64,000 bases of DNA from positions 780,936 through 844,935 of the forward strand of contig NC_007796.1 in the NCBI RefSeq assembly GCF_000013445.1, in the 5' to 3' direction. Positions 44,841 through 64,000 of this stretch are shown here, in pieces. The stretch's first letter is position 1, and the number at the start of each line of letters is the position of its first letter. The position numbers and the translations under genes were made by a program. The stretch is from Methanospirillum hungatei JF-1 (GTDB lineage Archaea; Halobacteriota; Methanomicrobia; Methanomicrobiales; Methanospirillaceae). The notes under the pieces were generated by a model that made no database searches, was not told the DNA's origin, and worked only from the letters and a program-made list of their open reading frames with translations.

Positions 44841-45395
44841 ATGACCGTATATGACCCGTATGCTGATATGTACATCAAAACCCCCTCTGGTCTTAACACA
44901 AAATTGGAAATTGCGAATCTCTCTCAAAGGATATCTCATTTACTCTATGATATTGGGTATTACAGTCACAACCTCAGGTGGGATATGTTATACCGGTTTC
45001 GGGAAGATCGGGAGATCGATGAGTCGGATATCGTATTACTAGAGGAGTTGATCTTACTTGGTGAATTTGATCTCCTTATTGAACATAACAAAATGAACGT
45101 TCCTTCTAACTTGTTGATTCAACTCTGTTCAATAATAAAATTTCTGACAAAAAAGGAATACTGTGGGAAAGCGCCTCTGCAACTTTTTCAGAAATTATTC
45201 CAATCAGGAGCTGGTTGTTTTATCCCAACCAATTTTTCTTTAATGTTCAGATTAATGCCCAGATTACCTGACACCCCGGAATATCTGGACTTTGGTTTCA
45301 TCAGAAAGATGATGTATTCTCAAATGTATGCGATCGATCCAAATTGTATCACTCATTACCTGTCCGGAGCACAATTAGGAAAAGATAATTTATAA
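44841..45395 (+). CDS. hypothetical protein
   Basis: 184 residues, soluble and helical (LNTKLEIANLSQRISHLLYDIGYYSHNLRWDMLYRF). The order of conserved-looking aromatic and acidic residues suggests a real protein, but I recognise no family. It converges on the HDAC-like gene with 7 bases between stops. Confidence 0.5.
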   Translation: MTVYDPYADMYIKTPSGLNTKLEIANLSQRISHLLYDIGYYSHNLRWDMLYRFREDREIDESDIVLLEELILLGEFDLLIEHNKMNVPSNLLIQLCSIIKFLTKKEYCGKAPLQLFQKLFQSGAGCFIPTNFSLMFRLMPRLPDTPEYLDFGFIRKMMYSQMYAIDPNCITHYLSGAQLGKDNL

Positions 45396-45402
45396 GTTCC
45401 TA

Positions 45403-46371
45403 TCACCACCAGTTTGGGTGGGTGCTTTTTACTGATTTAATTATCTGCATGATTCCATCGGGTTCATTGACTTTTTCAATCCCTCCGGTGTATTCCTTTT
45501 TTTGTAATGCAGTCACGATGGCATGGACAGATACTGGAAGTGATGCAAGATTATATCCACCTTCAAGGACTCCGATGACATTAGGTGTGATAGAAGTAAG
45601 AATCTGTCTTGTCATGGTATAGTAACTTCCAGAACAGAGACAGAGAGAAGAGAGAGGGTCTTTTTTATGACTATCCTGTCCGGCTGATATGACAACAGCA
45701 TCTGGATGAAATTGTTTTCCTGCCGGCAGGATGATCTCGGAAAAAATTTTCATATACGAATTGTGTCCGGTACCTGGAGGGACCGGTATATTGATGGTGT
45801 ATCCCTCTCCCTGTCCAACTCCTGTATCCTGAATTTCTCCTGTGCCGGGATAGAGAGGAGACTGATGGATGGATGTATAGAGTACGGAAGGATCATCGTA
45901 AAATATCGATTCGGTCCCATTGCCATGATGTGCATCCCAGTCAATAATCATGATTTTTTCCATCCCATGCATCTGCAGGTATCTGGCCAGAATTGCTGCA
46001 TTGTTCAGGTAGCAAAATCCTCCACCCCGGTCGGCATACGTATGGTGTCCGGGAGGACGATTGAGGACGAATGCATTCTGAGCTTCATCCTGAATAAGCA
46101 TCTCACCGGCGGTTAAACAACCAAATGCGGATTTTAAGGCATGTTCGTAATGAATATCCGAATAATCAACAGAACCGGTTGTGATGATATTGTTGATATA
46201 TTCCGGGGTATGGACCTGTTGGATCCACGATTCATCAAATACCCGTGGTTCAGTAAACATTTTTATGTCGTTTTTTATCAGATACTGCGCAGTAACCTTC
46301 ACTCTGTCCGGACATTCCGGATAGTTTTCATGGTTTTGAAAGAGTGGTGTGTAAATAATTCCCGTTTCCAT
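45403..46371 (-). CDS. histone deacetylase superfamily amidohydrolase
   Basis: 322 residues with the complete zinc site: RPPGHHT (His109, His110), IDWDAHHGNGTE (Asp144, Asp146, His148), SAGQDSHKKDPL (Asp near 231) and LEGGYN. Archaeal members deacetylate acetylpolyamines, short-chain acyl amides or lysines; the target is not readable. The protein starts at ATG 46371 and seems intact. Upstream bases to 46591 are AT-rich and serve two divergent genes. Confidence 0.92.
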   Translation of the reverse strand: METGIIYTPLFQNHENYPECPDRVKVTAQYLIKNDIKMFTEPRVFDESWIQQVHTPEYINNIITTGSVDYSDIHYEHALKSAFGCLTAGEMLIQDEAQNAFVLNRPPGHHTYADRGGGFCYLNNAAILARYLQMHGMEKIMIIDWDAHHGNGTESIFYDDPSVLYTSIHQSPLYPGTGEIQDTGVGQGEGYTINIPVPPGTGHNSYMKIFSEIILPAGKQFHPDAVVISAGQDSHKKDPLSSLCLCSGSYYTMTRQILTSITPNVIGVLEGGYNLASLPVSVHAIVTALQKKEYTGGIEKVNEPDGIMQIIKSVKSTHPNWW

Positions 46372-46591
46372 AATTCACCTCTTTTTTCCCATCCGGGAGC
46401 AACACCACTCCATTTGCGGGATGATTATTTGAACTGAAGCCATAAAATGAGGATTATTTTGTAGGTGGACAGAAATTTTTCAGAAGTATTAATAATTATT
46501 GATTTCTTGAACCATACCTACAATTCCTATTGTTTTTTGTAGCGAATCTCTTTAAATCTGATTTGCATTGTAAGATTCGATACAATGCGGG

Positions 46592-49500
46592 GTGATAAAC
46601 AAAGAGGCGAATGTTCATGAATCGTTATCGGATTTTATTCTGCATAAACAGATTGGTCTCATGAATAGGGGACAGGAATGTGTGGCACGTGAACGCTCTG
46701 AATTACATGCTACCCTGAATTATTGCCGGAGGAAAAAGATGGAAAATATCCCGAATCAGGAAGGACAATGCTGGATTGATTATCTGCTTACCCGGATAAC
46801 TGATCTTATCAAAATTCAAGAGTATGAACGTGCTCTCCCTATAGCAGAGCAGGCTCTTTTAATGCTGCCTGACAATCCAGATCTCATCTATCTGGCTTCA
46901 ACCATCTATCAAAATCTTAATAAATTCGTAAAGCAGCTTCGTTTACTTGAAAGATTACGCGATATCAGACCTTTTGACCAGGATAGACGATCAGCTCTTG
47001 GCAGAAGTCTCATGTTCCAGGGGTATTATTATTCTGCTCTTTCAGTGATGAGTCATTTTGACATGATGTCAAACGAACTGGCAGGGTATAACAAGGTATT
47101 CATGCATTATTGCAAGGCATGTATTGGGGATACACAATCAGTTATCGAGTACTGTGACTGTTGTTTTGAAGATTATCAGGATGAGCCCGATGCAGCCAGC
47201 TTTCTTGCGATCATTCGTGCCCTGAAAGTTATGTCTCTTATTCAGAATCAGGAGAATGAAGCTGCTAATAGTCTTGCTTGTTCGATCGATGAGGAATTTG
47301 ACAAGACGCTATTTGTGGCTTATGCCAAAGGAATTGCAGCCAGAGAAAATAATAATCTTGCTGCGGCTGAAAGGTTCCTCCGGCTTGCATGCACGAGCAA
47401 TCAACGAGATATGCGGGCGAGGAAAGAACTGGCTGATCTTCTTTCCGTGCTTGGACACCATGATGCAGCAGCTAATATTCGAAAGGAGATAACCGGTTTT
47501 TTTGGTCCTTTTGATGATCATGAAAATCCACTATACAGAGCAAAAGAATTCATAAAATCAGGAAATTTTGATGAAGCTGAGAGATATCTCTTATGGGTTC
47601 ATGAGCAGCAACCTGATCGGAATGACCTCATTCTTCCCATGATATCATTGTGCAATTTCACCGACCGGTATGATTCAGTTATTTCATATGCTGATTCTCT
47701 TGAAACAACTCCATACGCCTGGAAATCAGGATATCTGAAGGCATCTGCATATTATTCTGCTGGTGATGCCATGGGAGCAATCCGGTGCCTTATAGCCGCC
47801 ATAGCCCGGGATCGAATATTTTCGCTCATTACTATACTGAATATGAGGATTGAAGGCTATTTCAGAGATCCGGATATTTTTGATCCTGACGGAATGGCTT
47901 TGATGATATTTTGCACTGATGGATATGATTCGGCTATTCCTCTCTTTGAAATGTTAGTCGATACAAATCCGGATATTTTAGAATACCGTGCATTCCTGGT
48001 ATATTGCTACATTCTGGAAGATAAAAATACAGATGCTGCTATCTGTTCAGAACGATTATCTATGTCAGATGATCCGGATCTGTGTATGGTCCGGGCCCTT
48101 GCCCTCAGAGCGGCTGGTTGTCTGGATGAGGCTAAACAGGTGACGGAGAAGACCAGAAAGAGGTATCCGGATTATCTACCTGCCCTGAATATGTATGTCC
48201 GTATTTTGGTTGATCTGGATCTGTATAGATCCGCATATTTCGAACTTCTCTCGTATCAGGATGTTCTTCTGTCAGAAGCCCCTCTCATGGAGGTTTTCAT
48301 CCGGTGCCTTATTCATTCTGGAGATTTCCTTGAAGCTGCTACTTCAGCCTTTCGTCTCATCATGGCCAATCCTGACAGGCCTTTGGAATTTTTCTTTCTG
48401 GCACAGACCTTTATGCATGATGGCTATACTGATGCTGCATTGTATGCTATTCGTGAGAGTTTTCGATTTAGCGGGTTTAATTCAAAGACATTGCGGCTGT
48501 ATGTCAAGCTTCTGCTTCAGGCAGCATCTCCTCAGGAAGCCTCGATTTTTTTCTCTGAATGTGATGATTATTTCCCCGAACAGTCCTGAAGTCCGGTATC
48601 TGAAGAACGCAGCTGCACTTCTCTCGGGTGAGAATTCTTCTGACGAATCTGTTGAAGAACGTGTGGTCCGGATATTTCAGACTGAAAACGGAATTTTTCG
48701 CGGTTATATTGGTGAATATAGAAATGCAGTCGGAATGCTCACAGAAGAGATAAAGAAGAATCCTGCTGATTATTCGCTTCGTGTTGCGTTAGCACGGGTC
48801 CTATTTGAACTCAGGCAGGACAGAGAAGGATTTCATCAGTTATCAATGGCGATAGAGAACGGAGAGGAAGACAATGAAACTCTGGAATTGATGAATGCAG
48901 CATTGAATGCACTCAGTCTAAACTGTTTCATTGATGAGTATAAGCGGATATCTCAGGGTGATGTGGTAAGGTTTGCTAAACTGGTGTATGAGCAGGCTGT
49001 CCGCCAGAACAGGTTCGGAGTTAGGAGACAGGCGATTGACGTCTGCAGGTTCCTGACAGGTCTTTCATCATCAGATCCAGCAGTTCTGAGTATCAAGGCC
49101 GATGCATGTCGTATACTCGGAGATCTTGAGGAGGATCCGGAGAGGTATGAACAGGGGATAGCACTATACAATGAGCTGCTTTCAGATGATCCTGATAATG
49201 CCCGGTACCTGGCATATAAAGGGCTTCTTTTAGATAATCTTTCCAGGTATGAGGAAGCTGAGGATGTTCTCGTCCGTGCTCTGGAGCTTAATCCCGATTC
49301 GGGTGTTGCAAATTCAGCTCTGTGTTGGTGTCTGGCAGCTATCGGACGATACCAGGAAGCGTTATTGTATGGCAACAAAGCCACGATTCAAATCCCTGAT
49401 GATTGGGGAGCCTGGAACAATCGGGGACTTGCTAAACTAGGACTTGAAGATTTTGAAGGGGCGGTATCAGATTTCAAACAGGCAATCAGGTGTCATCCGG

Positions 49501-49700
49501 GAGAGCTAATCCCGAGGAATAATCTCTGTGAGGCTCTCCTCTCTCTTGATGATGCTGATGCCCAGGATGCTTTTGTGGATCTTTTGTTCAGATTCGGGTA
49601 CATGGCATTTCCTGTTAAAGAGGTGGAGGAGTCATGGAGTGTTCCGGGTTTGAACCGGGATCACAGAACCATTACCGGCTATATGGATGGGTATTGGTGA
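46592..49700 (+). pseudogene. giant TPR protein broken by a one-base frameshift
   Basis: The 5' frame (46592-48589) and the 3' frame (open to 49700) are one protein of about 1,035 residues made of TPR-like helical pairs throughout (for example ARYLAYKGLLLDNLSRYEEA and WNNRGLAKLGLEDFEGAVSDF). The frames join if one C is removed from CCCC at 48574-48577, giving DYFPNSPEVRYLKN. Start GTG 46592 or ATG 46661. TPR scaffolds bind partner peptides; the next genes (mini-protein, vWA) begin 36 bases later, so they may have formed one complex. Slippage or a sequencing error at the C-run are alternatives to true inactivation. Confidence 0.8.
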
Positions 49701-49736
49701 GCATATTACGTCAGTATTTTTGAGGAGGTGATAATC

Positions 49737-49871
49737 ATGGATATATTTGGATTCTGGCTGCATCAGGCGTTAGGTCTGCATCTGCAGGAGGAAGAAGAAA
49801 GAAAGGAGAAGGAGAGAAAGAAGCGAGAGGAAGAAGAGAAGAAGATGAGGTGGTACCATGACAAACGATGA
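49737..49871 (+). CDS. 44-residue charged mini-protein coupled to the vWA gene
   Basis: ATG 49737 follows an excellent Shine-Dalgarno (GAGGAGGTGAT). The product begins MDIFGFWLHQALGLHLQ, an amphipathic or membrane-touching helix, then a Glu/Lys/Arg-only coiled-coil-like stretch, and ends WYHDKR. Its stop overlaps the vWA start by 14 bases, so the two are translationally coupled. No family known to me. The codons are dominated by GAA/GAG/AAG, so the possibility of a low-complexity leader peptide remains. Confidence 0.6.
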   Translation: MDIFGFWLHQALGLHLQEEEERKEKERKKREEEEKKMRWYHDKR

Positions 49872-50580
49872 TAAAACAAACGGGAAGAATATGGAAGAAT
49901 ATAAAGCGACTCCTGTATCTGATGCAGGGGGCGAAATGGGCCGGACGAATGCAGATGAAGATGTCAGGCTTGATATCACGGTTATTCTGGACCGGTCAGG
50001 TTCCATGGATCCCATCTGTGATGACGCTATTGGATCATTTAATGCATTTCTTAAAGCCAGGAAGGATAGCAATCCAAATTCACTCATGACAGTTGTGCTC
50101 TTTGATGATGAGTACCTTGTCAGAGAAGTGGGTGTGCCAATTCAAGCAGTTCAACCATTGAATGACCGGACATATGTTCCACGGGGGAACACTGCTCTTT
50201 TTGATGCTATCGGAAAGACAATAAGGACGATTGAGGAGCGAACACATGAGGATGAAGAGGTGATGGTTGCCATACTTACCGACGGGCAGGAGAATGCATC
50301 GGTTGAGTATACTCTGGAACAAATCCGATCCCTCATTATAGAGAAAGAAGCAAAAGACTGGGACTTTGTGTATCTCTCAGCAGATCCCTCGGCTTTTGAT
50401 GATGGGAAAGCTATGGGATTTCAGGCATCCAAGATGGCAATGTACAAAAAAGAAGAGATGCATGAGGCATATGCTCACATGGATGAGATGCTTGCAATGA
50501 AATTATCCAAGGCCAGGGATATTAAAATTATGAAACGACGAATGAGGGGAAATGTGGAAGAGGATAAAATGTACCAGTAG
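49858..50580 (+). CDS. von Willebrand factor A domain protein
   Basis: 240 residues. After an acidic 37-residue lead the vWA fold starts with DITVILDRSGSM (MIDAS DxSGS at 45-49). The second MIDAS element is GNTALFDAIG (Thr near 105) and the third AILTDGQENAS (Asp near 132), so metal binding is complete. It has no signal peptide and is presumably cytoplasmic, binding a partner through the metal site. Neighbours suggest the TPR protein or the tubulin-like module. Confidence 0.88.
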   Translation: MTNDDKTNGKNMEEYKATPVSDAGGEMGRTNADEDVRLDITVILDRSGSMDPICDDAIGSFNAFLKARKDSNPNSLMTVVLFDDEYLVREVGVPIQAVQPLNDRTYVPRGNTALFDAIGKTIRTIEERTHEDEEVMVAILTDGQENASVEYTLEQIRSLIIEKEAKDWDFVYLSADPSAFDDGKAMGFQASKMAMYKKEEMHEAYAHMDEMLAMKLSKARDIKIMKRRMRGNVEEDKMYQ

Positions 50581-51036
50581 GGGAGAGGAGGTACAGGGTA
50601 ATTCCTCTAAAATTCTCCTTCTAGTTTAAAATTTAATCAATTCCGATGGGAATACTACTATTCAGCATGACAAGGATATTCTCTTCTCTATTATTTGTTA
50701 AATCATTATTCTCCATTTGAAAAATTGTATTGAGATGGTAATGGAGCGAAAAAACGACATAATATAAAGAAACTGACATAATCAAATATTACGGATACGA
50801 ATTCATAGTATGTTTCAGCAATGAAAATTCAGTTAAGACCTGACCTTGAAAGATACGATCTCATTTTAAGATTAATAGTGCATTTAGTATAATTGAGGGC
50901 AAAAGTTATACTCATCACAAGAGGAAAAGCTTGAGAGTGATCTTTCCTCACCATTATATGAGGATAATTCATGCTTTTCCGGTATCTTTATGCGACCGGA
51001 GAATGGATAGTAGATAATAGCAGAGGTTAGGAAATC
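50581..51036. other. intergenic region, no gene seen
   Basis: 456 AT-rich bases. I find no open frame, repeat or hairpin of note. The last 20 bases carry GAGGTTAGG, the ribosome site for the CARF gene. Confidence 0.5.
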
Positions 51037-51810
51037 ATGCCCAGAGCTTTCAACAAGGATATGAAAACTGCAATTATTGCCCCAATAGGAACAAGCCCCC
51101 CGGTCATTACTGCAGGTATTGACGCACTTGATGAACCGGTATCTGATCTAGTGCTCCTCGCGACAAAGGATGAACAGGTATTAGCCGGCTGTGATGTCGT
51201 AAAACTTGGACTTAAATCCAGATACCCCCGAATCAGGGTTCATGTAGAGCTGCTTCCGTTTGATGATATCAGTTCAGATGTTGAAAATCTCACATTCATG
51301 GCAATTGCAGCACGTGTGATTAAGAAAGAACGTGAAAGTTATGGGTGTGAGCGTATTCTGCTCAATGTGGCCGGCGGAAGAAAGAACATGTGTATCACTC
51401 TTGCACTCCTGGGGCAACTTCTTAATGTGGATGGAGTGTATCATATTGTGAACCATGAGGTAAAACTCTTCAATCAACACCTGGAACGAATGAGACCGAC
51501 GATGATGAGATTGTTCCGGGCTGAAAAAGAAGAGGACAAAATTATGATATATGCAGATAACCGGGAGATGTTTGAGTACATCCTGTATCCTCCAAAGAAT
51601 GAATATGAGTTGATCCGAATTCCAACACTTCCCTATCCTGTCTCGTATATCAGTTCCCTCTTAAGCCGGGTGGTTTTTGATCCGTATATGTTAAATGAAG
51701 AGGATTGTTCTCTTCTTCTTCATCATGGAATTCTTGAGCGTCAGGGGAATAATCTGTATATTTCCGATTATGGAGCAAAATTTTTAGATGTCCTTGTTGG
51801 AAAGGGGTAA
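51037..51810 (+). CDS. CARF-domain protein with C-terminal winged helix
   Basis: 257 residues. Residues 10-155 form a Rossmann-like CARF domain: AIIAPIGTSPPVITAGIDAL, the strand VSDLVLLAT, and the ligand motif LLNVAGGRKNM (110-118), the counterpart of the N-x-T-G-G-T-K motif that holds cyclic oligoadenylate. Residues 190-257 look like a winged helix (SYISSLLSRVV, LLLHHGILERQGNNLYISDYG). There is no HEPN or nuclease motif. It resembles CARF-wHTH regulators such as Csa3, or a stand-alone ring nuclease-like CARF. ATG 51061 is a possible shorter start. Convergent with the next gene, overlapping by 27 bases. Confidence 0.75.
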   Translation: MPRAFNKDMKTAIIAPIGTSPPVITAGIDALDEPVSDLVLLATKDEQVLAGCDVVKLGLKSRYPRIRVHVELLPFDDISSDVENLTFMAIAARVIKKERESYGCERILLNVAGGRKNMCITLALLGQLLNVDGVYHIVNHEVKLFNQHLERMRPTMMRLFRAEKEEDKIMIYADNREMFEYILYPPKNEYELIRIPTLPYPVSYISSLLSRVVFDPYMLNEEDCSLLLHHGILERQGNNLYISDYGAKFLDVLVGKG

Positions 51811-52410
51811 TGAGACTTTGTTGAGGCGTAATTCTGCCGGCTCTCCATTCAGTTTTTTTGCCTCGTCCATTGCTGCCTTCAGGTAGGTATCAGCAACGAT
51901 GAGGATTTTATCCGCAGAGATTTTTTCCGCATGGGCCTTTGCATAATAGTTTTTACCAATATTTTCTATCTGCATCTGGGTCCGGTATAAGACCATTGGA
52001 AGTTTATCAAGGTATGCCAGCCATGAATTGAGCATGACTTTCCCCTCCGGACTGATGTGATATGAATTCGCCCTGGTTACTGCTCCTGAAAGTTCATCGG
52101 CATATTGGATATTTAAAGTAAGCATGGCTCCATTCAGATCACCTTCTGATATTTCATTGGATAATTGTGTATAGATGTCTTGTATTGTTCTTCCAGTCGT
52201 GAGAATATCAGATGCCAGACGTTTATCTTCGAAAGGTTTTTCCGTTTCCACTGGTGTCACGGACTGATTCAGGGTCGGGGTTGTCGGGATTGGCGTTGAG
52301 TTTGGTTTTTCCTGATGTACGAGCGATATGGAAAGAAATAATAAGAGACAGGTCAGGATGATCCCAACCAGTATACCTGTAAAAAATGATTTGAGACATG
52401 GATCATTCAT
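51784..52410 (-). CDS. membrane-anchored extracytoplasmic protein, unknown
   Basis: 208 residues. One N-terminal transmembrane helix (about 9-31), a Pro/Thr-rich spacer (to about 58) and a helical outer domain (ASDILTTGRTIQDIYTQLSNEIS, later ISADKILIVADTYLKAAMDEAKKL). Single-pass anchor with outside domain. I recognise no family. Confidence 0.6.
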   Translation of the reverse strand: MNDPCLKSFFTGILVGIILTCLLLFLSISLVHQEKPNSTPIPTTPTLNQSVTPVETEKPFEDKRLASDILTTGRTIQDIYTQLSNEISEGDLNGAMLTLNIQYADELSGAVTRANSYHISPEGKVMLNSWLAYLDKLPMVLYRTQMQIENIGKNYYAKAHAEKISADKILIVADTYLKAAMDEAKKLNGEPAELRLNKVSLPLSNKDI

Positions 52411-52572
52411 AATTTCAGTACTAGTTAATATCCATCAGTATTTTTATTATTTATGATATGTGATAAACATGAGGTGTTGACCAGTAATCAAGAGAGATTT
52501 ACATATTCCTCATGACTGTGGATTTACAAAATCGGTGATGGTCCATTTCTATCTGTTCAGAATAAAATCAAT

Positions 52573-53436
52573 ATGTTTATGTATTGGAGAAAAGTAATGG
52601 CTAATATGCTTAAACTTCATAAAATTCAGGGCGGACTTATACTGGGATTACTGCTTTTATTTTTATGTATTCCTGCATCAGCAGCCATAGATCTGACGTC
52701 ATCATCTGTCTTTGATTCCGGGGGTTTAACACCTGCTTTTGGCGAAGAGATTCAGACAACAATTATTATCAAATCAGGTCCTCATGACGTTGAAGACCTG
52801 AAAATTGTTTTTTTAGAGATGGATGGGCTTATTGATCCTCTTTCTTTTGGAAAATCGCTGTTTCCAATCGAGACACAAGCTAATATTACGCTCGATAATA
52901 ATGTTCTTTTCTGTGACCATCTGAAAGCAGGAGAGGAACTGACCATAACGTTTCATGTATATCCGAAGAGTACTCAAAAGTCAATGATTACCCCTGTTCA
53001 GATGCAGATCTCCTATATTCAACTTGGACAAAAAATATCAGAACAAAAAACGGTTACAACTGCTATGGACCAGTCTGCGTGGCATACTCTGCAAACCACC
53101 CGGACCAGTACAAATAATACTGGGATTCTTCTTATTCTTGCCGCTCTTGGAATTGCGATTGTGATTATACTCATCCTCATTGTGAAGATGAAGGACATGA
53201 ATGTGCAGGATACCTCAAAGAAGATAGTTTCCCGTGATGTGAGTATTCTGAAAGAGATAAAAAGCAGACTTGACGGGATTGAAAACCCATCCACCAGTAT
53301 TATTGAACTGCAACATTATGTAAAGTCTGAACTGGATAAGATTATGAATAATAAAATTGGAACTGATTTGCCTGAAGATGGTAGCAGAAAGATAGAAAAT
53401 CCAGATAAACCAAAGAAGACCGGGGATAAATTCTGA
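52573..53436 (+). CDS. single-pass membrane protein with cytoplasmic coiled-coil tail
   Basis: 287 residues (or 279 from ATG 52597, MANMLKLHK). A signal peptide (to about 38, ending ASAAID) is followed by a beta-rich outer domain of S-layer/COG1361 type. One transmembrane helix (about 184-205) leads to a charged cytoplasmic tail (SILKEIKSRLDGIENPSTSIIELQHYVKSEL) that can form a coiled coil. It ends 8 bases before the tubulin-like gene, so it is a good candidate for the membrane anchor of that filament. Confidence 0.7.
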   Translation: MFMYWRKVMANMLKLHKIQGGLILGLLLLFLCIPASAAIDLTSSSVFDSGGLTPAFGEEIQTTIIIKSGPHDVEDLKIVFLEMDGLIDPLSFGKSLFPIETQANITLDNNVLFCDHLKAGEELTITFHVYPKSTQKSMITPVQMQISYIQLGQKISEQKTVTTAMDQSAWHTLQTTRTSTNNTGILLILAALGIAIVIILILIVKMKDMNVQDTSKKIVSRDVSILKEIKSRLDGIENPSTSIIELQHYVKSELDKIMNNKIGTDLPEDGSRKIENPDKPKKTGDKF

Positions 53437-53444
53437 GGGATATT

Positions 53445-55643
53445 ATGAGTGATAAGGATTTATTTGAGGAGTCAGGTATCATCCCAACCCTTGCAATTGG
53501 TGTCGGGATGGGGGGAGTGAGTGTTGTCAAGGAGTTCATCTCTTTTGTTGAGAAGAATGGAATCATTGATAATTACCGGTTTGTTGCAATTGATTCAAAT
53601 ATTGATGATCTGAACAGGATCATAGAGTTTGCACCAAATACCTCGAAAATTGCGATTACCGATCACCAGTACGATGTGATGAATCTGAAAAAAAATTGTC
53701 CATATCTGCATAAATGGGTCGTTATGCAAAAGGGAGGTGCTCTTCAGGAGCGGGTGTATGGACGATTTCTGCTTGATCTTCACAAGGAAGAGATAACAAG
53801 GACGATTACTGCCCATATACATGATCTCTCAAATCTCTGGAAAGAGAAGGAAGGTGGCGGTGAGAAGCGGGGTCACATTGCAATCTGGATTATTCATTCT
53901 CTGGGTGGGGGAACAGGTAGTGGATCTTTCCCGGCTCTCGCCATCTATCTGCAGAAGATAGTAAAGGAAATCCTGGGTAATAAAGGAATTACTCCGCATA
54001 TCTATGGGGTTGGTATTCTTCCTTCCGGGACAAATATTACCGACATCTCAACTGCAACGTTCACAAAGAGATATTTTGCTAATTCCTTTGCTGCTCTTGA
54101 GGAGGTTAAGGTTCTGGCAGCAGCATCAGATGTTGCCCCTGTAACCCTGAAACTTCCGTTTCATGGTGAACCTATTCAGGTTACGGAACGGCCTTTTGAA
54201 CGGTATTTCCTGTTCGGTATTGATGAAGAGCTGACGACGAAGCTTCGGAAGGAGAAGGGGGAGATGGTTGATGATTATCTCTCCCATGCAAATAAGATTA
54301 TTGTAACTATGATGTTTGCTCTTCCCCAGTATCCAAAAGGTTTGGAGAATCTATGGAAGGATGTTCCAAGTCCTTTTGCCTCTTTTGGAGAAAGCGAACT
54401 GAATATTCCTATTCGGTTGGTGAAATATCTTGCAGGGGAAAATGATCTTCTCGGTCCTGTTATTGATGAGAATGAATCGGTGAAGGCAGAATTGCGTAAG
54501 CTGGTCATTGATGCGATGAAAGAATTTTTGCGGAACTTGAATGAGTCATTTCTTGAGGACCGGGCGTTAGCAGTGTTCCAGGAGTATCGTCTTTTGGGTC
54601 TGGCTTATTTTGTGGGGAAATTGCAGAATCAGATCAATAAACTTCAGATTAATATTCAGTCAGAATATGAGGAAGAACTGGATACCTGGTGGGAGACGCT
54701 TAGAAGTGAGAGCTGGTCATGTGACCAGATTGAGCGGGCAGGGGTTGTTGGATTAGAAGAGAAACATAATCTGATTGTTGAGCTTTTTAATTCCCGAATT
54801 GAGGAACTTGTGAGAAAATTAGACTCACTTCTGGTCAGTCCTTTGAAAAAGCCGGATCTTCGGGAACGAAAGGAGAAGATTGAGAAGATTTTGCATGATC
54901 TTGAAGTTTTAAAGGTAAAAACTCTGAAAGTCAGAACATTAAAGCAATATGTTGATACGAAGATAGGGGAGAAACTTTCTCTTCAAAACCGTGATTCGAA
55001 GGAGAAGATCCTGGGTGTTGCATCTATCGTTACCTTTGCGAGGAAGAAGGATGCATACCGCCAGAATGTCTTGAAAAAACGGCTTGGTCTGTCTGGAAGC
55101 GGTCGGGTTTTAAATCCTGCTCTTTCTGAAGATATTATGAACAGCGTCTCTTTAGTGCGAGATATCAATGTTGCCCATATGAAGAGTCTGGCTGATTATT
55201 TCCAGACTCTAAAGTTTTCACAGAAAGATGTGGATAAAATTATAAAGAATAGGATTGAGCAGTCCCGTGACCGGCACCTTTCGGTTGCAATCGGTTCAGG
55301 GGGGGAGATTCTTACAAATCCTCGCGAAGAACTATTTATTTTATGTAATATGCTTCATGAGAGTGCACTTGGAGATAATATTGCATTTGCATCAATGAAA
55401 GTGGTGAAGATACCAAGTCAGACATATAATGATGAGAAAGTTGAGTTTATTGACTATACTCTCAATCTTTCAATTGAAGATGTGAAAGAGTACAATATTC
55501 GAAAAGCAGAGTATGTGCAGAATAAATTGAAAGAAAAAACCGATATTGCCGGGCCTATTGGAACCATCTTTGCATACCCGGAGTGGTTCCCGAAAGATCC
55601 TCTTGTTCAGGAGGTCTATCTGGATATCGGTTCTGAATCTTAA
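53445..55643 (+). CDS. tubulin/FtsZ-superfamily GTPase (Tubulin_2-like)
   Basis: 732 residues. T1 loop GVGMGGV (19-25), then the tubulin signature GGGTGSG (154-160) followed by SFPALAIYLQKI. The core continues with IYGVGILPSGTNI. Residues from about 390 are long charged helices (coiled coil) and the C-terminus returns to mixed fold. It is about twice the length of FtsZ and lacks the FtsZ C-terminal peptide, as in the FtsZ-like families proposed for membrane remodelling in archaea and bacteria. Ribosome site GAGGGATAT before ATG 53445. It should bind GTP and polymerise; that is family knowledge. Confidence 0.88.
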   Translation: MSDKDLFEESGIIPTLAIGVGMGGVSVVKEFISFVEKNGIIDNYRFVAIDSNIDDLNRIIEFAPNTSKIAITDHQYDVMNLKKNCPYLHKWVVMQKGGALQERVYGRFLLDLHKEEITRTITAHIHDLSNLWKEKEGGGEKRGHIAIWIIHSLGGGTGSGSFPALAIYLQKIVKEILGNKGITPHIYGVGILPSGTNITDISTATFTKRYFANSFAALEEVKVLAAASDVAPVTLKLPFHGEPIQVTERPFERYFLFGIDEELTTKLRKEKGEMVDDYLSHANKIIVTMMFALPQYPKGLENLWKDVPSPFASFGESELNIPIRLVKYLAGENDLLGPVIDENESVKAELRKLVIDAMKEFLRNLNESFLEDRALAVFQEYRLLGLAYFVGKLQNQINKLQINIQSEYEEELDTWWETLRSESWSCDQIERAGVVGLEEKHNLIVELFNSRIEELVRKLDSLLVSPLKKPDLRERKEKIEKILHDLEVLKVKTLKVRTLKQYVDTKIGEKLSLQNRDSKEKILGVASIVTFARKKDAYRQNVLKKRLGLSGSGRVLNPALSEDIMNSVSLVRDINVAHMKSLADYFQTLKFSQKDVDKIIKNRIEQSRDRHLSVAIGSGGEILTNPREELFILCNMLHESALGDNIAFASMKVVKIPSQTYNDEKVEFIDYTLNLSIEDVKEYNIRKAEYVQNKLKEKTDIAGPIGTIFAYPEWFPKDPLVQEVYLDIGSES

Positions 55644-55713
55644 ATGATCCGGATTTCTTTTTTTCCTGATATTTGTATGAGATATTTGATGACATATGGT
55701 ATAATGGTGAATT

Positions 55714-57396
55714 ATGATTAAACGGGCACTTTTATTTGGTGGGACAGACGGGCATGGCATTATTATGACTGGTCTTTCCGAACGGGCTTTAAAGGGAGAA
55801 GGGTTTGAGGTGATTACTGTATGTTCGTATATCCGGCCATTACCGGAGAAGGAACAGGAATATGCAGATTATGGGACTCATATACCATGTTTTTTCTGGC
55901 AGTATACGTTTCCCTATTATATGAAGAATTTTGTTTCCGATTATTCCATTGTTGTTATTGTTGATATTCCCTTTCCTGAGCCTGACAACCGGTGCCCGTC
56001 TTTATCTGTTGATCAGATTGTTGAGGAGATGAAATCAGCACTCGAGATTGTTCCGAGAATTGTCCTGATTGATCATCATAAGAACTCATTTACGCATTAT
56101 GGAAAGGTTTCACAGGTTGGTGCGGAGGTTGTAATATCTTCATCAGCCATGTTTACTCATTACGGGAAACCGGATAAGTTTACTCATAAATGGGGGAGAT
56201 ATGGAGCAATTTGTGATAGGGATGATGCTGTTCTTCCGGTAACTGAAGAGGAAGAGATTTTTGCTGCACGAATAGATGCTGCGAAAACTGATATTGAAGG
56301 GTGTCTTAATGCAATACGGCAGGATGATTTTTCATTTTTTAACCATTTCTCTCCGGATATTCCAAAGCCTGATACGGTGATGGAGTATGATTCATTTCTG
56401 TATATCCCCAGATTAGCGGAAGGGTTTGGCTATAAACAATTGGATCAGGCATGCAGGCAGTATAGAAAGGATTATGCTCTTGGAGTTAGTTATCAGAACC
56501 CTGATAACCCAGTAATCCTTCTAACGACGTATTGGAAATCAGATAACCTACCGGTGGCCCTGTTGCTTGGTATGACCAGATTTCGTGGGCATGTTACTGC
56601 TCCGAATATTGATTTTTCTCATGAGATGGTCGACGATCTCATCTCGTTGTTATCTCATCCAGATAAGGGAGAGATCAAAGAAAGCGGACAGATTCTTTCT
56701 AATCAGTTCTACTCCTATGTTGCAAGGTTTTTAAGGCGGGTTGAGATTCCGTACTTTCTGACCCTGCATAAATGGGGGCATGTAGAGCATGTTATCGCGA
56801 ATGCACGGACGCTTGGGTCACTGTATGGTCTTTCAGATGAAGAACAGAAAATCCTTAACTGGGCCTGCCTTCTCCATGATATCGGGTATGGGATCGATCG
56901 TTCAATTTGTCCGGATTTTGACGAGATACACCGTCGCCATCATGAGTTTTCAGAACAGATGGTTCGTTCATGGGAAAAAGAGGGGTTGTTTTCCGGGTTT
57001 TTGAATCATGATGAGGTGAGTCTTATTGCTGATATGTGTCTGCGTCATCGGAAGAAGATGGAACTTCCAGGCAAGGAGAGAGATCATCTGTATATTTTGC
57101 TCAGGGTTGCCGATGGGATGGATAATGATTACCGAAGGGCTCAGAAAAATGATGAAGGGACACTCTATAGTGAATTGGATAAGCATTTAAATGAAGATTC
57201 CAGGCGTGAGTGGGAGAGCCATCAGGCGGTTTTAGGGCTTTCTCTGAATATAAGGGATGATGTTCTGACTTTTGTAATGATTGTTCGTGACCGGGAAAAG
57301 GCCTTCGTGAAAATTCAGGATCTGGAACGTGAGACTGAACCATTAAAACGGTATTATAAGATTCGGATAGAGATTATAGATATTACAGATGAGTAG
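55714..57396 (+). CDS. DHH-HD fused phosphodiesterase
   Basis: 560 residues. The N-terminal half is a DHH-type phosphoesterase: FGGTDGHGII near 8-17, IVDIPFPEPDN near 83-92, and VLIDHHKNS with Asp120-His121-His122. The C-terminal half (about 340-510) is an HD phosphohydrolase: KWGHVEHVI, CLLHDIGYG (His-Asp near 388), HRRHHEFS, LRHRKK and LRVADGMDND. DHH enzymes split pApA, c-di-AMP or short oligonucleotides, and HD domains split cyclic nucleotides or phosphate esters. It lies 11 bases before a CARF-HEPN gene, so a role in turning over the second messenger is plausible. The HD could be an unrelated dNTPase. Confidence 0.8.
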   Translation: MIKRALLFGGTDGHGIIMTGLSERALKGEGFEVITVCSYIRPLPEKEQEYADYGTHIPCFFWQYTFPYYMKNFVSDYSIVVIVDIPFPEPDNRCPSLSVDQIVEEMKSALEIVPRIVLIDHHKNSFTHYGKVSQVGAEVVISSSAMFTHYGKPDKFTHKWGRYGAICDRDDAVLPVTEEEEIFAARIDAAKTDIEGCLNAIRQDDFSFFNHFSPDIPKPDTVMEYDSFLYIPRLAEGFGYKQLDQACRQYRKDYALGVSYQNPDNPVILLTTYWKSDNLPVALLLGMTRFRGHVTAPNIDFSHEMVDDLISLLSHPDKGEIKESGQILSNQFYSYVARFLRRVEIPYFLTLHKWGHVEHVIANARTLGSLYGLSDEEQKILNWACLLHDIGYGIDRSICPDFDEIHRRHHEFSEQMVRSWEKEGLFSGFLNHDEVSLIADMCLRHRKKMELPGKERDHLYILLRVADGMDNDYRRAQKNDEGTLYSELDKHLNEDSRREWESHQAVLGLSLNIRDDVLTFVMIVRDREKAFVKIQDLERETEPLKRYYKIRIEIIDITDE

Positions 57397-57407
57397 AGGG
57401 AGATGAG

Positions 57408-58685
57408 ATGACAAAATTACTTTCTTTTGTCGGTACCGGGCAGTTATATGATACGATATATCGTCTGAATGGTGAGGAGTATCATACAGCTGTCGTTCAG
57501 GAGGCGTTATGCCGGTATTATAAGCCTGATGAGGTTGTGCTGTTTGTGACACGTGAGGCACGAAGCAGGAATCTTCCCATCATTGAGGCTGCGATTCCTT
57601 CTACTCCGATTACTATTGTGGATATCCCTGATGGGAAATGCGAAGATGAGATCTGGGATATCTTTTCAATAGTGACCGATTCGGTGCATGAGAATGATGA
57701 TATTATCTTTGATATCACACACGGGTTTCGATCCCTGCCGTTTATTGCCCTGCTTTCGATTGCGTATTTGAGGGAAATAAAACCCTTTTCACTGTCTGGT
57801 GTGGTGTATGGCGCGTTTGAGGCTCGTGAAACGATTCACCTGGAATCCGGGAAAGAGATTTCTCGGGCACCGGTCTTTGATCTGACCAGATTTGTGAGTA
57901 TTTTTGACTGGATGGCAGGGGTCAGGTCTTTTCTTCATCATGCCGATGCCGGGGTACTTGAGCAGATGGTTAACCAGATCTCTGATGAGGAGTTTTCACA
58001 AATCCAGAGCAGAAAAGGGACAAAACCGCTTATGGACCTGTTAGGGCCGATGTCAACGTATGCCGCGTCTGTACGGCTGTCACGACCGGTCGAGGCGATG
58101 AAGACTGCATATAGTATTCAGGAACGGTTCGAAGCTGCTACTGGAGCAATTAAAAAGCATACTCCGGTTCTGACGCCGCTTTTATCAAAGATATCAGAGA
58201 TAGAACATTTCGCGTTGCCGGAGCCTAATATCCTGACCGATGCTGTGATTCAAAAGCAGCGTGATCTTATTCAGGTTCAGCTTGAGATGGGGCTGTATCA
58301 GCAGGCGGTCACGCTGGGACGGGAATGGATGGTAACGGTACTGCTCTTTGCTGCAGGGGCCGGGGAAGAATGGCTGAAAAAAGAGACCCGAAATGAAGCG
58401 GAGAATTCACTCTCTGGTGCAGAGAAGGTACTGAGTACGCAGTCTAAAGCCCAGTCTCTTCGTAATGATAAGGAGAAACCCAGGTTCCTGGACTGGTTCT
58501 GTAGTCATGTTTCCTGGAAGGAGATGACCGGAATTTGGAGCAGGACCTCGCAGATGAGGAATGAACTGGCCCATTGCGGGATGAACCCAGAAAGCCTCAA
58601 AGTCCGGCAACTGCAAAAAAAGGTTGATAAATTTCCTGACGTTCTTGATAAGTTTTATGCTCTGATGATGGGATTACCGGGTTAA
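57408..58685 (+). CDS. csx1: CARF-HEPN ribonuclease, Csx1/TM1812 family
   Basis: 425 residues. CARF domain: MTKLLSFVGTG, VVLFVT, DIPDG and the conserved FDITHGFRSLPF (101-112). HEPN domain at the C-terminus with the RNase motif R-x4-H at 384-389 (RNELAH). The family binds cyclic oligoadenylate from Cas10 and then cleaves RNA. It is the last gene of the membrane protein, tubulin, DHH-HD row, with only 11 bases to the DHH-HD gene and its own Shine-Dalgarno (GAGGGAGATGAG). Confidence 0.92.
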   Translation: MTKLLSFVGTGQLYDTIYRLNGEEYHTAVVQEALCRYYKPDEVVLFVTREARSRNLPIIEAAIPSTPITIVDIPDGKCEDEIWDIFSIVTDSVHENDDIIFDITHGFRSLPFIALLSIAYLREIKPFSLSGVVYGAFEARETIHLESGKEISRAPVFDLTRFVSIFDWMAGVRSFLHHADAGVLEQMVNQISDEEFSQIQSRKGTKPLMDLLGPMSTYAASVRLSRPVEAMKTAYSIQERFEAATGAIKKHTPVLTPLLSKISEIEHFALPEPNILTDAVIQKQRDLIQVQLEMGLYQQAVTLGREWMVTVLLFAAGAGEEWLKKETRNEAENSLSGAEKVLSTQSKAQSLRNDKEKPRFLDWFCSHVSWKEMTGIWSRTSQMRNELAHCGMNPESLKVRQLQKKVDKFPDVLDKFYALMMGLPG

Positions 58686-58686
58686 T

Positions 58687-59940
58687 TCATAATTTGCTGA
58701 GTTCCTGATATACATTTTCGAGTTCTCCTGGTATTGCGAGTACGTTATTTTCAAGTGTTTTTGCATCTTTCCTGATTTCTCTCATGCCACAATGTGCCAG
58801 ATCATTTCTCACCCGGCTAATTTTCTGCCAGGTGTTAGCGATTTTTTCCCATCCGGTGATTTGTTCCAGCCTTCTTACCATTGGTGAGGACTTATAATTT
58901 TTTCGTTTCTTCCTGATGGTCAGAGCATGGAGTGCTTCTTCAGCATCGGTTCTGACGGTTTCTTTAAGCCAGGAGGAGAAGAGTCCCTGGTGGCAGATGA
59001 CTGCAGAGACCATCCATTCCCTGGCGAGTTCGGCGGCCTGCAGATATAGTCCCTTTTCCACCTGGTATGATATGATTGCCAGCTGGGATTCAAGGGTGCT
59101 CCAGGAGGGAGAGGAGGATCGGGTTTGTGCAAACGGGGGCATCTCATTTATTTTTTCTAGGACCGGATTTAAGGCAGGGAAGTCTGCATGTATCTTATTT
59201 CTGACATTGGCAAGGTGTTTCATGACTTCGATACCGGAATTTGCGGCTTCGATGGGGCGTGCAAGCTGTATGCCAGCGGTGAACTGGCGGAGAGAATCGG
59301 CAAGATGAGTAAGGGTTTCATATGGATCCGTATCAGGATAGGGGGATGAAATGGATCCAGGAATCCGGGATGCAGTCACCATGGCCTGCATGCCCCTTGC
59401 ATCAGCAAAGGAGACAAAGGATCTGACAGCCATCATCCAGTCAACAAGGGTGATGAATGAGGTGAGATCTGATATGGGTGATATTCTACGGGTCTGACCG
59501 GTGTGATCACAGAAATCTTCACCTGCTTCGTACGCTCCATACACGACTCCCCAAAGGGTTGCACCGGTTACTTCCCTGATGTATAGGGCGGTGAGGAATG
59601 CAAGGAAGGGCATAAACCGGTACGCATGGGTTATGTCAAGAAGGATTTCATCATCTGGGCCAACTGCATGAGATATTTTATCAAATATTTCCCAGAGTTC
59701 AGATTCCGTCCGACCATCCGGGATGTCAATGAGGGTGTGTGGATGTTCTGAGAGGCTGGTAATGACGGTGGAGAGATTATTTGTTTTGGCTTTTCCGGTG
59801 ACAAAGAGGGTTATCATGTCAGGATGGTAGAACTCTGCCAGTGCCTTTTGTATAACGGTAGTATCGCATAGAGATCCGTTAAGGGTGTATCTGGCTGGTT
59901 TTAATTCTCCGGTTCCGACAAAACTGAGACATTTCCGCAT
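58687..59940 (-). CDS. csx1: CARF-HEPN ribonuclease, second Csx1/TM1812 paralogue
   Basis: 417 residues, same architecture as the convergent neighbour and readily aligned with it: CLSFVGTGEL, VTGKAKTNNL, DIPDGRTE, DITHAYRFMPF and the HEPN motif RNDLAH (378-383). Stops are one base apart. Both HEPN sites are intact, so both are expected to be active; they may sense different ring sizes. Confidence 0.92.
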   Translation of the reverse strand: MRKCLSFVGTGELKPARYTLNGSLCDTTVIQKALAEFYHPDMITLFVTGKAKTNNLSTVITSLSEHPHTLIDIPDGRTESELWEIFDKISHAVGPDDEILLDITHAYRFMPFLAFLTALYIREVTGATLWGVVYGAYEAGEDFCDHTGQTRRISPISDLTSFITLVDWMMAVRSFVSFADARGMQAMVTASRIPGSISSPYPDTDPYETLTHLADSLRQFTAGIQLARPIEAANSGIEVMKHLANVRNKIHADFPALNPVLEKINEMPPFAQTRSSSPSWSTLESQLAIISYQVEKGLYLQAAELAREWMVSAVICHQGLFSSWLKETVRTDAEEALHALTIRKKRKNYKSSPMVRRLEQITGWEKIANTWQKISRVRNDLAHCGMREIRKDAKTLENNVLAIPGELENVYQELSKL

Positions 59941-60237: not shown

Positions 60238-62387
60238 GTTGCCATACCCTTCTATTTTCGGGTCACTTGCAACGCAGACCGCGACGAGGCCTGGGGCAGA
60301 CTGGAAAGTTGCCATACCCTTCTATTTTCGGGTCACTTGCAACTATTTCTCCTTCAAAACGTTTAATGTACTTATTCAGTTGCCATACCCTTCTATTTTC
60401 GGGTCACTTGCAACAGCAGATGACATAGTAAACAGAATCACTGAACTGGTTGCCATACCCTTCTATTTTCGGGTCACTTGCAACCTATTCCCCTGCACGA
60501 TTGAGAAACCCGGCGCATAGTTGCCATACCCTTCTATTTTCGGGTCACTTGCAACGACTCAAGTGCAAAGAAAGCAATCATAGAACTTCTGTTGCCATAC
60601 CCTTCTATTTTCGGGTCACTTGCAACTTTCATCCCATGCAAACAGGTGCCGGGCAATCAGTTGCCATACCCTTCTATTTTCGGGTCACTTGCAACTATCA
60701 GAATTCTGGAAAGCCGTCTCTCAAGAGCGTGTGGTTGCCATACCCTTCTATTTTCGGGTCACTTGCAACCCTGTCACGAGATGACGTGTCAGCCATGAAG
60801 TGGTTGCCATACCCTTCTATTTTCGGGTCACTTGCAACTATCAATTAACCTATGTTCTACTCTTCTGTATGTGTTGCCATACCCTTCTATTTTCGGGTCA
60901 CTTGCAACATGCGTGCCCGCACGCCTGCACGTTGCCACCTTGGTTGCCATACCCTTCTATTTTCGGGTCACTTGCAACTAACATTGCATTAGAACAACTC
61001 TACGTGGACATCGTTGCCATACCCTTCTATTTTCGGGTCACTTGCAACAAATAGCCCGTCGCCAGGCGATGGTATCACGAATGTTGCCATACCCTTCTAT
61101 TTTCGGGTCACTTGCAACTAACCGATTTCAGGTTACCTTTATAGCATATAACAAGTTGCCATACCCTTCTATTTTCGGGTCACTTGCAACATCTCGAATT
61201 ACAAGGTAGACCCATGGGGTCTATGTTGCCATACCCTTCTATTTTCGGGTCACTTGCAACCCAATACGTTGGTCACGTAAAGTACGGATGTGAGGTTGCC
61301 ATACCCTTCTATTTTCGGGTCACTTGCAACTACTTTTTCCGTAAAGGAGCTGCTTACAGAACTGGTTGCCATACCCTTCTATTTTCGGGTCACTTGCAAC
61401 AACTAAAAGAGGGCCCCCCTAAAATCTCTTAAAGTTGCCATACCCTTCTATTTTCGGGTCACTTGCAACAATCTATAGGGAAGGTAAATCTTTACCAGAT
61501 ACTGTTGCCATACCCTTCTATTTTCGGGTCACTTGCAACAAGGTTTCCATCCTCATAGAATGGAAACAAGCGGGTTGCCATACCCTTCTATTTTCGGGTC
61601 ACTTGCAACAGATGAGGTATTGGTGCTTAAAGGGCACCCGCTTGTTGCCATACCCTTCTATTTTCGGGTCACTTGCAACAGGAAGAGTCGAACAACAAAT
61701 TTCAAAAAATTGTAAGTTGCCATACCCTTCTATTTTCGGGTCACTTGCAACTGTGGTGACTTGAGTGGCACCACTATTAGCCGCAAGTTGCCATACCCTT
61801 CTATTTTCGGGTCACTTGCAACGGGGGCAGAGTTGCAGATGTTGATATTCACGCTGGTTGCCATACCCTTCTATTTTCGGGTCACTTGCAACGAGGACTT
61901 GAGTTGTCCCCTGTGCACAGTCGAAGTTGCCATACCCTTCTATTTTCGGGTCACTTGCAACAACTTCTCCAGCTTGTGCTCTATCTCTATATGATGGTTG
62001 CCATACCCTTCTATTTTCGGGTCACTTGCAACTCTCAAATGTAGTGCCCCTTCCCACAAGATTTATTGTTGCCATACCCTTCTATTTTCGGGTCACTTGC
62101 AACTGTACCGTCCTTCCATGCTGCAAATCATTAACAGGTTGCCATACCCTTCTATTTTCGGGTCACTTGCAACTCATAAGGTTGATCTCATGTTCTAACC
62201 AGGTTACGTTGCCATACCCTTCTATTTTCGGGTCACTTGCAACACCCCAAAATTCCATCTGAACGATAAATATTTTTTCGTTGCCATACCCTTCTATTTT
62301 CGGGTCACTTGCAACCGTGTAACCTAATTATCAGTCATTCAGTCTCACATTGTTGCCATACCCTTCTATTTTCGGGTCACTTGCAAC
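60238..62387 (-). CRISPR. CRISPR array, part 1 (31 repeats)
   Basis: 36-bp repeats beginning GTTGCCATAC and ending CACTTGCAAC (plus-strand view) with short inverted ends GTTGC/GCAAC. All 31 copies read identically. Spacers are 33-38 bases and all differ. The degenerate repeat at the left end suggests that side is the old, trailer end; with the purine-rich strand being minus, transcription is probably from right to left and the leader lies beyond the window. No cas effector, cas1/cas2 or cas6 gene is in the window; the adjacent CARF-HEPN genes suggest use by a type III system. Subtype is not assigned. Confidence 0.97.
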
Positions 62388-62395
62388 TAAAAATC

Positions 62396-63492
62396 GGTAG
62401 TGCCCTGTTAGCAAGCTGGTAATACTAAGTGCAAATAAAGTATTAAATTTTATGTACTAAAAATTAATATAAGTTTAGATATAATTATTTTCATGGTTGG
62501 AAAACGTGGTCCTATATTGATTACGTGTCAAAATCCGGATTGTACTTATTTTCAAATTGAAGATGGAAAGAATATTACTAAAAATGGGCATAATTCTGCA
62601 GGCAATCAACAGTACTATTGCCATCACTGTCGACGTTTTTTTATTGAAACTAAAAATACTCCTCTGTATGATTCTCGTTTACCACGAACTGCTGTTCTCA
62701 TAATTGCGAAACACTCGACTGAAAAAACTTCAATTCGAGGAGTATCTCGAGTTACCGGACACCATCGCGACACTATATCTCGATATTATCACTTAATCGG
62801 TGAACATGCTGAAAAACTCAACGATTATTTTATTCATGACATTTCCGCGGGGGATTGTGAGATGGATGAAATTTGGGAGTTTGTTCAAAAAAAAACAAGA
62901 ATCTCCTAACAACTGACTCTGAAGAATTAGGTGATTGTTGGTCCTATACTTGTTTTAAAAGGGATTCTGGATTATTTTTAGCATTTGAATCTGGAAAAAG
63001 AAATATTGATACTTGTGCAGATATGTTAGTTCGATTTTTTAACCGAATGGAACTTCCAACGCCAGAAAACAAAATATCGATTTTTACTGATGGAAACGTC
63101 CAATATAGCATTTGTTTACCTGAATTATATTGTGAGCCATGCTTGGATTATGGTCAGGTGATCAAAGTAAAAGAGAAGAATAAACTTGTTTATGTCATTC
63201 GAGAGAAAATTATGGGAAATCCAGATAGTAAAGCAATCTCTACCTCAGTCATTGAGGGCTACAATAATAAAATCAGACAACGATTGAGCCGTTTTGGAAG
63301 GAAAACTGCCTCTTTTTCAAAAAAACTCAATAGATTCATTTCAGCGCTAAATATCTTTCAATTTGTGCATAATTTTATCGAAGTAAAAAGTAGTCACAAG
63401 TCTCCAGCAATGTTAGAAAGTATTACTGATCATCTTTGGAATTGGAGTGAGTTTTTAAACTACCATGTTCAGTTCTAAAGGAGGCCAGTACC
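62396..63492 (+). mobile_element. IS1-family element, copy 2 (1,097 bp), inside the array
   Basis: Starts GGTAGTGCCC and ends GGCCAGTACC. Same length as copy 1 and identical encoded proteins. The 8-bp duplications flanking it are intact, so the insertion looks recent and has not rearranged. Confidence 0.93.
62493..63478 (+). CDS. IS1-family transposase (insAB, programmed -1 frameshift)
   Basis: Two overlapping frames: 62493-62909 (InsA-like, zinc finger and HTH) and 62873-63478 (catalytic). Nine A at 62887-62895 form the -1 slip site that would fuse them into a roughly 320-residue DDE enzyme. Protein text is identical to copy 1. Confidence 0.9.
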
Positions 63493-63527
63493 TAAAAATC
63501 CCATAAAAACGAAAAAGAAGGTTGTAA

Positions 63528-64000
63528 GTTGCCATACCCTTCTATTTTCGGGTCACTTGCAACTGCAATACTACCATATCCACCAAATACTCTAAGTTGC
63601 CATACCCTTCTATTTTCGGGTCACTTGCAACTTTGTATTATATCATCGAGTAAAAAACTTGAAACAGTTGCCATACCCTTCTATTTTCGGGTCACTTGCA
63701 ACTTAAATGGTGAACAGTATAATTGACGAAAAATGTTGCCATACCCTTCTATTTTCGGGTCACTTGCAACCCACCAACCGTTATATTCCTTATGATTCAT
63801 TTTTAGTTGCCATACCCTTCTATTTTCGGGTCACTTGCAACTAAAGAAGCCTACCGATACAGGAGGAAAGATAAAGTTGCCATACCCTTCTATTTTCGGG
63901 TCACTTGCAACTGAAAAACACTCCCCCGTCAGAACCCGCCGTTCGGTTGCCATACCCTTCTATTTTCGGGTCACTTGCAACAACGACAGCCTGTTCTCCT
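63528..64000 (-). CRISPR. CRISPR array, part 2 (7 repeats, continues past the window)
   Basis: Seven more perfect 36-bp repeats (starts 63528, 63596, 63667, 63735, 63806, 63876, 63946) with spacers of 32-35 bases. The window ends 19 bases into the next spacer. No leader-like AT-rich end is reached. Confidence 0.97.

Follow-up and report, generated by a model that had tools for sequence, protein, structure and literature searches.

Can a tubulin-family protein take part in type III CRISPR (clustered regularly interspaced short palindromic repeats) immunity? This question is raised by a locus of Methanospirillum hungatei JF-1. In this study, we analysed a window of 64,000 nucleotides, positions 780,936-844,935 of the one-contig genome (3,544,738 bp; G000 in our comparisons), and assigned families to its proteins with Pfam, NCBIfam and PADLOC. 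The original prediction had placed here, next to a CRISPR array, a type III-linked module of three CARF proteins, a tubulin, a membrane protein, a vWA protein and a DHH-HD enzyme. All of these genes were found where it had put them, including one CARF protein with a helix-turn-helix (HTH) domain and two with HEPN domains, and the array starts near 60238. The core unit consists of three plus-strand genes in the order membrane protein (52573-53436), tubulin (53445-55643) and DHH-HD predicted phosphodiesterase (55714-57396). They are followed by a CARF-HEPN gene, and the intergenic gaps across 52573-58685 were 8, 70 and 11 bases, as predicted. We found the membrane-tubulin-DHH-HD unit next to type III CRISPR systems again in several Methanomicrobiales lineages, and the vWA and CARF-HEPN genes proved not to be fixed members. 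These results suggest that the membrane-tubulin pair and the DHH-HD enzyme are probably an undescribed type III CRISPR accessory arm and not accidental neighbours.

The tubulin was searched for in 199 genomes of the order and then at class level. Strong matches at the order level were found in G000, G177, G077, G143 and G140, and the class level added G214. The gene set of the window was present in G177 (M. hungatei isolate M59), with a 90% identical tubulin and cmr1 on the same contig. In a third Methanospirillum genome, G197, a short contig carried the end of the DHH-HD gene and both CARF-HEPN genes. The membrane-tubulin-DHH-HD unit of G077 adjoins an array; a separate contig carries a complete cmr operon, and the array beside that operon has an identical repeat. 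The G140 locus comprises a cmr operon, a Card1-like CARF protein (TIGR02710-like), cas1, arrays, Csx16, DHH-HD, the membrane protein and the tubulin. The locus of G143 (Methanoregula sp. PtaU1.Bin051) comprises a Csm1-like operon, a Card1-like protein, cas1, arrays, NYN, Csx16, Fic, a Csx3-like pair (identified by visual inspection), the membrane protein and the tubulin; no DHH-HD gene was found in this genome, and the Csx3-like protein and Csx16 occupy the position of that gene. On the ADurb.Bin062 contig, a cas6-cmr operon is followed by DHH-HD, an insertion sequence (IS), the membrane gene, which a profile search found just upstream of the tubulin, and the tubulin. Spread to bacteria through a 'Thermotogae' contig, MWEM01000048 (L056/L116), was considered and rejected. 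This contig was treated as misbinned Methanoregula-type archaeal DNA because its tetranucleotide composition correlated better with the Methanoregula-like G140 and G143 (0.83-0.86) than with its own bin (0.71), for which other contigs gave 0.85-0.98.

Wherever both were present, the DHH-HD gene and the membrane-tubulin pair were neighbouring and co-directional. Their relative order varied: the pair comes first in the window, G177 and G077, and DHH-HD comes first in G140 and, across the IS insertion, on the ADurb.Bin062 contig. The type III operon was of the Cmr kind (III-B) in G140, G077 and the ADurb.Bin062 contig, and Csm1-like/Csx10-like in G000 and G143. The GGDD motifs of Cas10 were intact. 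In JF-1 itself, the type III operon lies outside the window, about 24 kb downstream of the tubulin, and its Cas10 also has an HD motif; cas1 is likewise past the window end. The distance between the tubulin and cas10 was 24-26 kb in G000, G140 and G143 and 11 kb on the ADurb.Bin062 contig; the chance product of these four distances is about 7e-8, if they are independent. PF22335 Cas10 was present in all of G000, G177, G077, G140 and G143 and in the ADurb bin. Within Methanospirillum, a Csm1-like Cas10 was found in the module-bearing G000 and G177 and, by score, in G197, while four relatives had neither a Cas10 match nor the module, and G149 had a different Cas10 and no module. Across diverged genomes, the module thus lies repeatedly with cas10 or CRISPR, as is expected of a type III accessory gene.

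Other tubulins of the family served as controls. The module tubulins are short (717-753 amino acids), and long Tubulin_2 proteins (about 860-1,190 amino acids) are common in the phylum. Neither CRISPR arrays nor homologues of the reference cas genes were seen in any of 20 control loci of long Tubulin_2 genes (18-20 kb each). Among about 72 genomes with Tubulin_2 and without the module, many of them fragmented, 13 carried PF22335 Cas10, in no case near the tubulin. The original prediction was partly supported: DHH-HD recurs with the membrane-tubulin pair across Methanomicrobiales lineages, and CARF-HEPN adjoins this unit only in Methanospirillum.

The DHH-HD gene was found at CRISPR or type III loci in every case (the window, G177, G197, G077, G140, the ADurb.Bin062 contig and G066) and at no other locus among the genomes searched, and there were zero matches on plasmids or phages. 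In G066 it follows cmr6-csx16 in a cmr operon lacking a tubulin gene, and on the ADurb.Bin062 contig it lies 85 nt past cmr6 in the same direction. The HD domain of the window protein matched PF01966 (4e-10), with a further HD-CE match in Pfam. The DHH region scored under the Pfam thresholds and was assigned from motifs and a fold search, using a model of moderate confidence (mean predicted local distance difference test, pLDDT, 60.8). The best Foldseek matches of residues 1-319 were an NrnA homologue, a PAP phosphatase and RecJ, with archaeal RecJ-Cdc45 also among them. Residues from about 340 to 555 matched Ppx/GppA or HD-GYP domains (Z 10.8 for the Ppx/GppA C-terminal domain). The HD metal-site residues H356, H388-D389, H409, H445 and D467 were unchanged in all six sequences, as were the DHH residues D84, D120, H121 and D168; H122 was kept in five of the six.

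The 732-residue tubulin matched PF13809 (4.8e-21). Its GGGTGSG GTP-binding loop, within the FtsZ-like N-terminal domain, was kept in 7/7 tubulins. The model has an FtsZ/CetZ fold over residues 13-320, and CetZ2 was the best match of a second fold comparison (Z 18.6). The C-terminal half is helical (helices over 344-505, pLDDT mostly 71-91), and residues 541-684, in the C-terminal third, were modelled without confidence. By sequence and predicted fold, its assignment to FtsZl1/Tubulin_2 stands despite the missing link to vWA, which is a common context of the family and not a strict requirement. The membrane protein, with hydrophobic segments at residues 21-39 and 185-203, is predicted to have a hydrophobic N-terminus, an extracytoplasmic-looking domain of about 140 residues, a transmembrane helix (185-203) and a cytoplasmic tail. 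Its gene lies immediately upstream of the tubulin at every short-tubulin locus, with a spacing from overlap to 66 nt. The tail ends in Phe or Phe-Glu in the window, G177, G077, G140, G143 and G214, and not in G276 or G474. Distant relatives of the membrane protein adjoin tubulins in two more genomes, G385 and G397. A plasmid search for the tubulin gave only weak haloarchaeal Tubulin_2 matches.

This study establishes recurrent linkage, conserved gene order, folds and conserved catalytic residues; the DHH-HD substrate, the formation of filaments, an action on membranes and the signal or sensor that triggers the pair are inferred. The reading that we favour, tentatively, is a two-part type III accessory module of Methanomicrobiales in which DHH-HD destroys the signal and the membrane-tubulin pair is the effector. 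DHH-HD would be a phosphodiesterase that resets the response, as ring nucleases and NrN do: its HD domain would open or cut the nucleotide messenger made by Cas10, and its DHH domain would finish off the linear product. The membrane protein and the FtsZl1 tubulin would form a membrane-anchored GTP-binding assembly, co-opted as an effector on the cell envelope, and the neighbouring CARF proteins (Csx1, Card1-like and Csx14-like) would be ordinary type III parts. That DHH-HD serves type III signalling is the safest step. Its removal of the messenger, about as likely as not, is suggested because it lies next to Csx16, is replaced by a Csx3-like protein in G143 and has a precedent in NrN. We are less sure that the pair acts as an effector, which is possible. 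Direct control of the pair by cyclic oligoadenylate appears improbable because no sensor domain was found. The most detailed form, a membrane-anchored FtsZ-like polymer switched on by the Cas10 messenger and off by one enzyme whose HD domain opens the ring and whose DHH domain cuts the linear product to AMP, which would make it a cytoskeletal arm of CRISPR immunity, is also unlikely.

Several observations weigh against the favoured reading, and most of them concern the pair. No CARF, SAVED or other nucleotide-sensor domain was matched in the tubulin or the membrane protein with Pfam, NCBIfam or PADLOC; CARF was also absent among the fold matches of the tubulin, whose C-terminal third is poorly modelled. 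The T7 catalytic loop looks altered relative to FtsZ, since the segment aligned by eye with the FtsZ NxD motif is ENLWKD, in which an invariant Trp replaces the Asp; pLDDT is below 50 there. The pair occurs without CRISPR genes in two other archaea, G474, whose tubulin is 37-48% identical to the others, and G276, and in G214 it lies on a 6-kb contig with otherwise only housekeeping genes. No cas10 was detected in the genomes G474 (61% complete), G276 and G214 (87% complete). A single clade of CRISPR-linked tubulins was unsupported: G474 grouped with them, and the remaining branching is obscured by long branches. For DHH-HD, the G066 copy has a degraded DHH motif (D12N and H122Y). The original prediction had named as fatal the recurrence of the tubulin, membrane and vWA genes without any CARF or CRISPR gene, together with species-specific neighbours of Csx1; the membrane-tubulin pair does recur without CRISPR genes in G276 and G474, which counts partly against the prediction, and the membrane-tubulin-DHH-HD cluster is not species-specific.

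These exceptions indicate that the pair either predates its link to CRISPR or is more mobile than that link. They count in favour of a different explanation: the pair would be an independent (stand-alone) envelope or defence unit, frequently inserted in a CRISPR/defence island of Methanomicrobiales, and only DHH-HD and the CARF proteins would take part in type III signalling. The lack of a CARF or SAVED match in either protein and the separate occurrence of the two parts (the G066 cmr operon has DHH-HD but no tubulin, and G143 has the tubulin but no DHH-HD) are in line with it. However, in most Methanomicrobiales lineages that carry it the pair lies within CRISPR loci, the exceptions being G474, G276 and G214, and it stays adjacent to and co-directional with DHH-HD even where the gene order or the type III subtype differs. 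Clustering in defence islands alone predicts no such regular partner, and we consider the stand-alone unit possible, if doubtful. The role of DHH-HD could also differ from that proposed: in the CRISPR response, it may be a RecJ-like nuclease or process RNA or DNA, and not degrade the messenger. RecJ and archaeal RecJ-Cdc45 structures are among its best matches, and HD nucleases exist in Cas10 and Cas3. However, NrnA and PAP phosphatase match equally well, and DHH-HD lies repeatedly beside the cyclic tetra-adenylate (cA4) ring nuclease Csx16 and has the Csx3-like protein in its stead in G143, so that a nuclease of this kind seems unlikely.

The vWA gene (49858-50580; DxSxS at residue 45) bears on a further explanation, that the locus has no CRISPR tie and is another case of the FtsZl1-vWA(-GTPase) operons for conflict or membrane remodelling that were reported in 2010 and 2020. 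The tubulin belongs to Tubulin_2/FtsZl1, a vWA gene is nearby, and published FtsZl1 contexts hold vWA, GTPase and kinase genes. However, vWA as a module member, as the original prediction had it, was rejected: its homologues travel with TPR, HDAC and orf184 genes and not with the tubulin. In G197 (L173), the homologue lies away from the module and from CRISPR, beside the same TPR and HDAC genes and orf184-like gene as in window 44841-49700. In G077 it is beside an orf184-like gene on a different contig from the module, and none was detected in the G140, G143 and G214 genomes. As regards vWA, this explanation is largely refuted, and overall we regard it as very unlikely. Because its homologues recur with those genes, vWA belongs to an upstream group (orf184, HDAC-like and TPR; 44841-50580), which abuts the CRISPR locus only in M. 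hungatei among the loci seen; in G177, the end of the vWA gene is still present on the module contig. The window TPR gene is split in two overlapping frames, 46592-48589 and 48195-49700 (within 46592-49700). It looks frameshifted, because both frames match consecutive parts of single longer homologues, one of 991 amino acids in the same genome and one of 997 in G197.

The Csx14-like CARF protein with a C-terminal HTH (51037-51810, plus strand) matched PF09623 (2e-45), PF24744 (7.6e-33), TIGR03642 (1.1e-47) and PDLC01906 (6e-118), and its homologues adjoin cas6 in G140 and G143. It and vWA lie outside the 52573-58685 transcription unit because a minus-strand gene for a small single-transmembrane protein (51784-52410), overlapping the end of the CARF-HTH gene, intervenes; the original prediction had overlooked this gene. 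This protein was found in Methanospirillum only (67% in G177) and had no family match in the three databases. Both CARF-HEPN proteins are of the TM1812/Csx1 type with an Rx4H HEPN motif. The first (57408-58685, plus strand; TIGR02221 1.5e-30, PDLC01824 5e-104) is the last gene of the co-directional run and belongs to it in Methanospirillum only. The second (58687-59940, minus strand; TIGR02221 3.9e-23, PDLC01824 8e-102) is convergent to the run, a neighbour within the CRISPR locus. The array (60238-64000, strand not assigned) runs on past the window end, with 38 repeats inside the window and about 75 when the adjoining region is counted. It is interrupted, at about 62493-63478, by an IS1-like element (62401-63480); a second copy at 35389-36468, about 27 kb upstream and in the opposite orientation, is 100% identical over 1,080 bases. 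Downstream of the window (L048:5517-15700), blocks of the same array are separated by cas1, an SbcD/SbcC-like pair of exonucleases and a gene of PD-(D/E)XK appearance; the family search there confirmed cas1 only. In G143 (L045:3745-7272), a compact accessory cluster of an NYN nuclease, Csx16, a Fic-domain protein, a Csx3-like protein and a P-loop partner lies between the array and the tubulin pair.

The type III effectors known so far act by cleaving nucleic acids or proteins or by opening membranes. If the favoured two-part module is true, a tubulin that has a dedicated membrane partner would add a new kind of type III executor, and a first function would be assigned to a branch of FtsZl1, a family about whose role there have been guesses since 2010. 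DHH-HD, present even in a tubulin-free cmr operon, is in its own right a candidate CRISPR off-switch of a new class, and one that is easy to test.

No prior description of the membrane-tubulin-DHH-HD module was found in the open-licence literature, nor anything relevant on CARF together with tubulin-like or FtsZ-like proteins. FtsZl1 was described in 2010 (Makarova & Koonin, PMC2875224; Pfam Tubulin_2), with an FtsZ-superfamily sequence of M. hungatei JF-1 in the Figure 1 alignment; an operonic vWA association was reported for the majority of FtsZl1 proteins, not universally, and the main text does not mention CRISPR. The tubulin studied here shares with FtsZl1 the GTP-binding loop, the FtsZ-like N-terminus and the helical C-terminal half, and membrane partners were expected; it differs in its short form, its own membrane partner, its DHH-HD neighbour and the unlinked vWA. 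A later survey (Altae-Tran 2023, PMC10910872) reports tubulin-domain proteins near CRISPR loci with vWA, kinase, phosphatase and transmembrane proteins. As named there, those systems are vWA-related, unlike the present module, and the two may overlap. Tubulin-family proteins also occur in defence-like operons of the tubulin/GTPase/HSP70 conflict systems (Kaur 2020, PMC7159879), and in contrast to these no TRAFAC GTPase or HSP70 gene was recognised beside the module. Csx16 and Csx3 degrade cA4, and Csx16, Crn3/Csx3 and Csx14 are ring nucleases (PMC12409355). Such proteins adjoin the module (Csx16 in G140, G143 and G066, a Csx3-like protein in G143 and the Csx14-like CARF-HTH protein in the window), whereas DHH-HD is of an unrelated fold. 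In the CorA-NrN type III-B system (Chi 2023, PMC10600005), a membrane effector is paired with the DHH-family NrN, which degrades the messenger SAM-AMP. CorA was not matched by Pfam or PADLOC among the module neighbours in the window. Both systems place a membrane protein and a DHH phosphodiesterase, predicted in our case, at a type III locus; in the module described here, the tubulin-membrane pair stands in place of CorA, and the DHH domain is followed by an HD domain.

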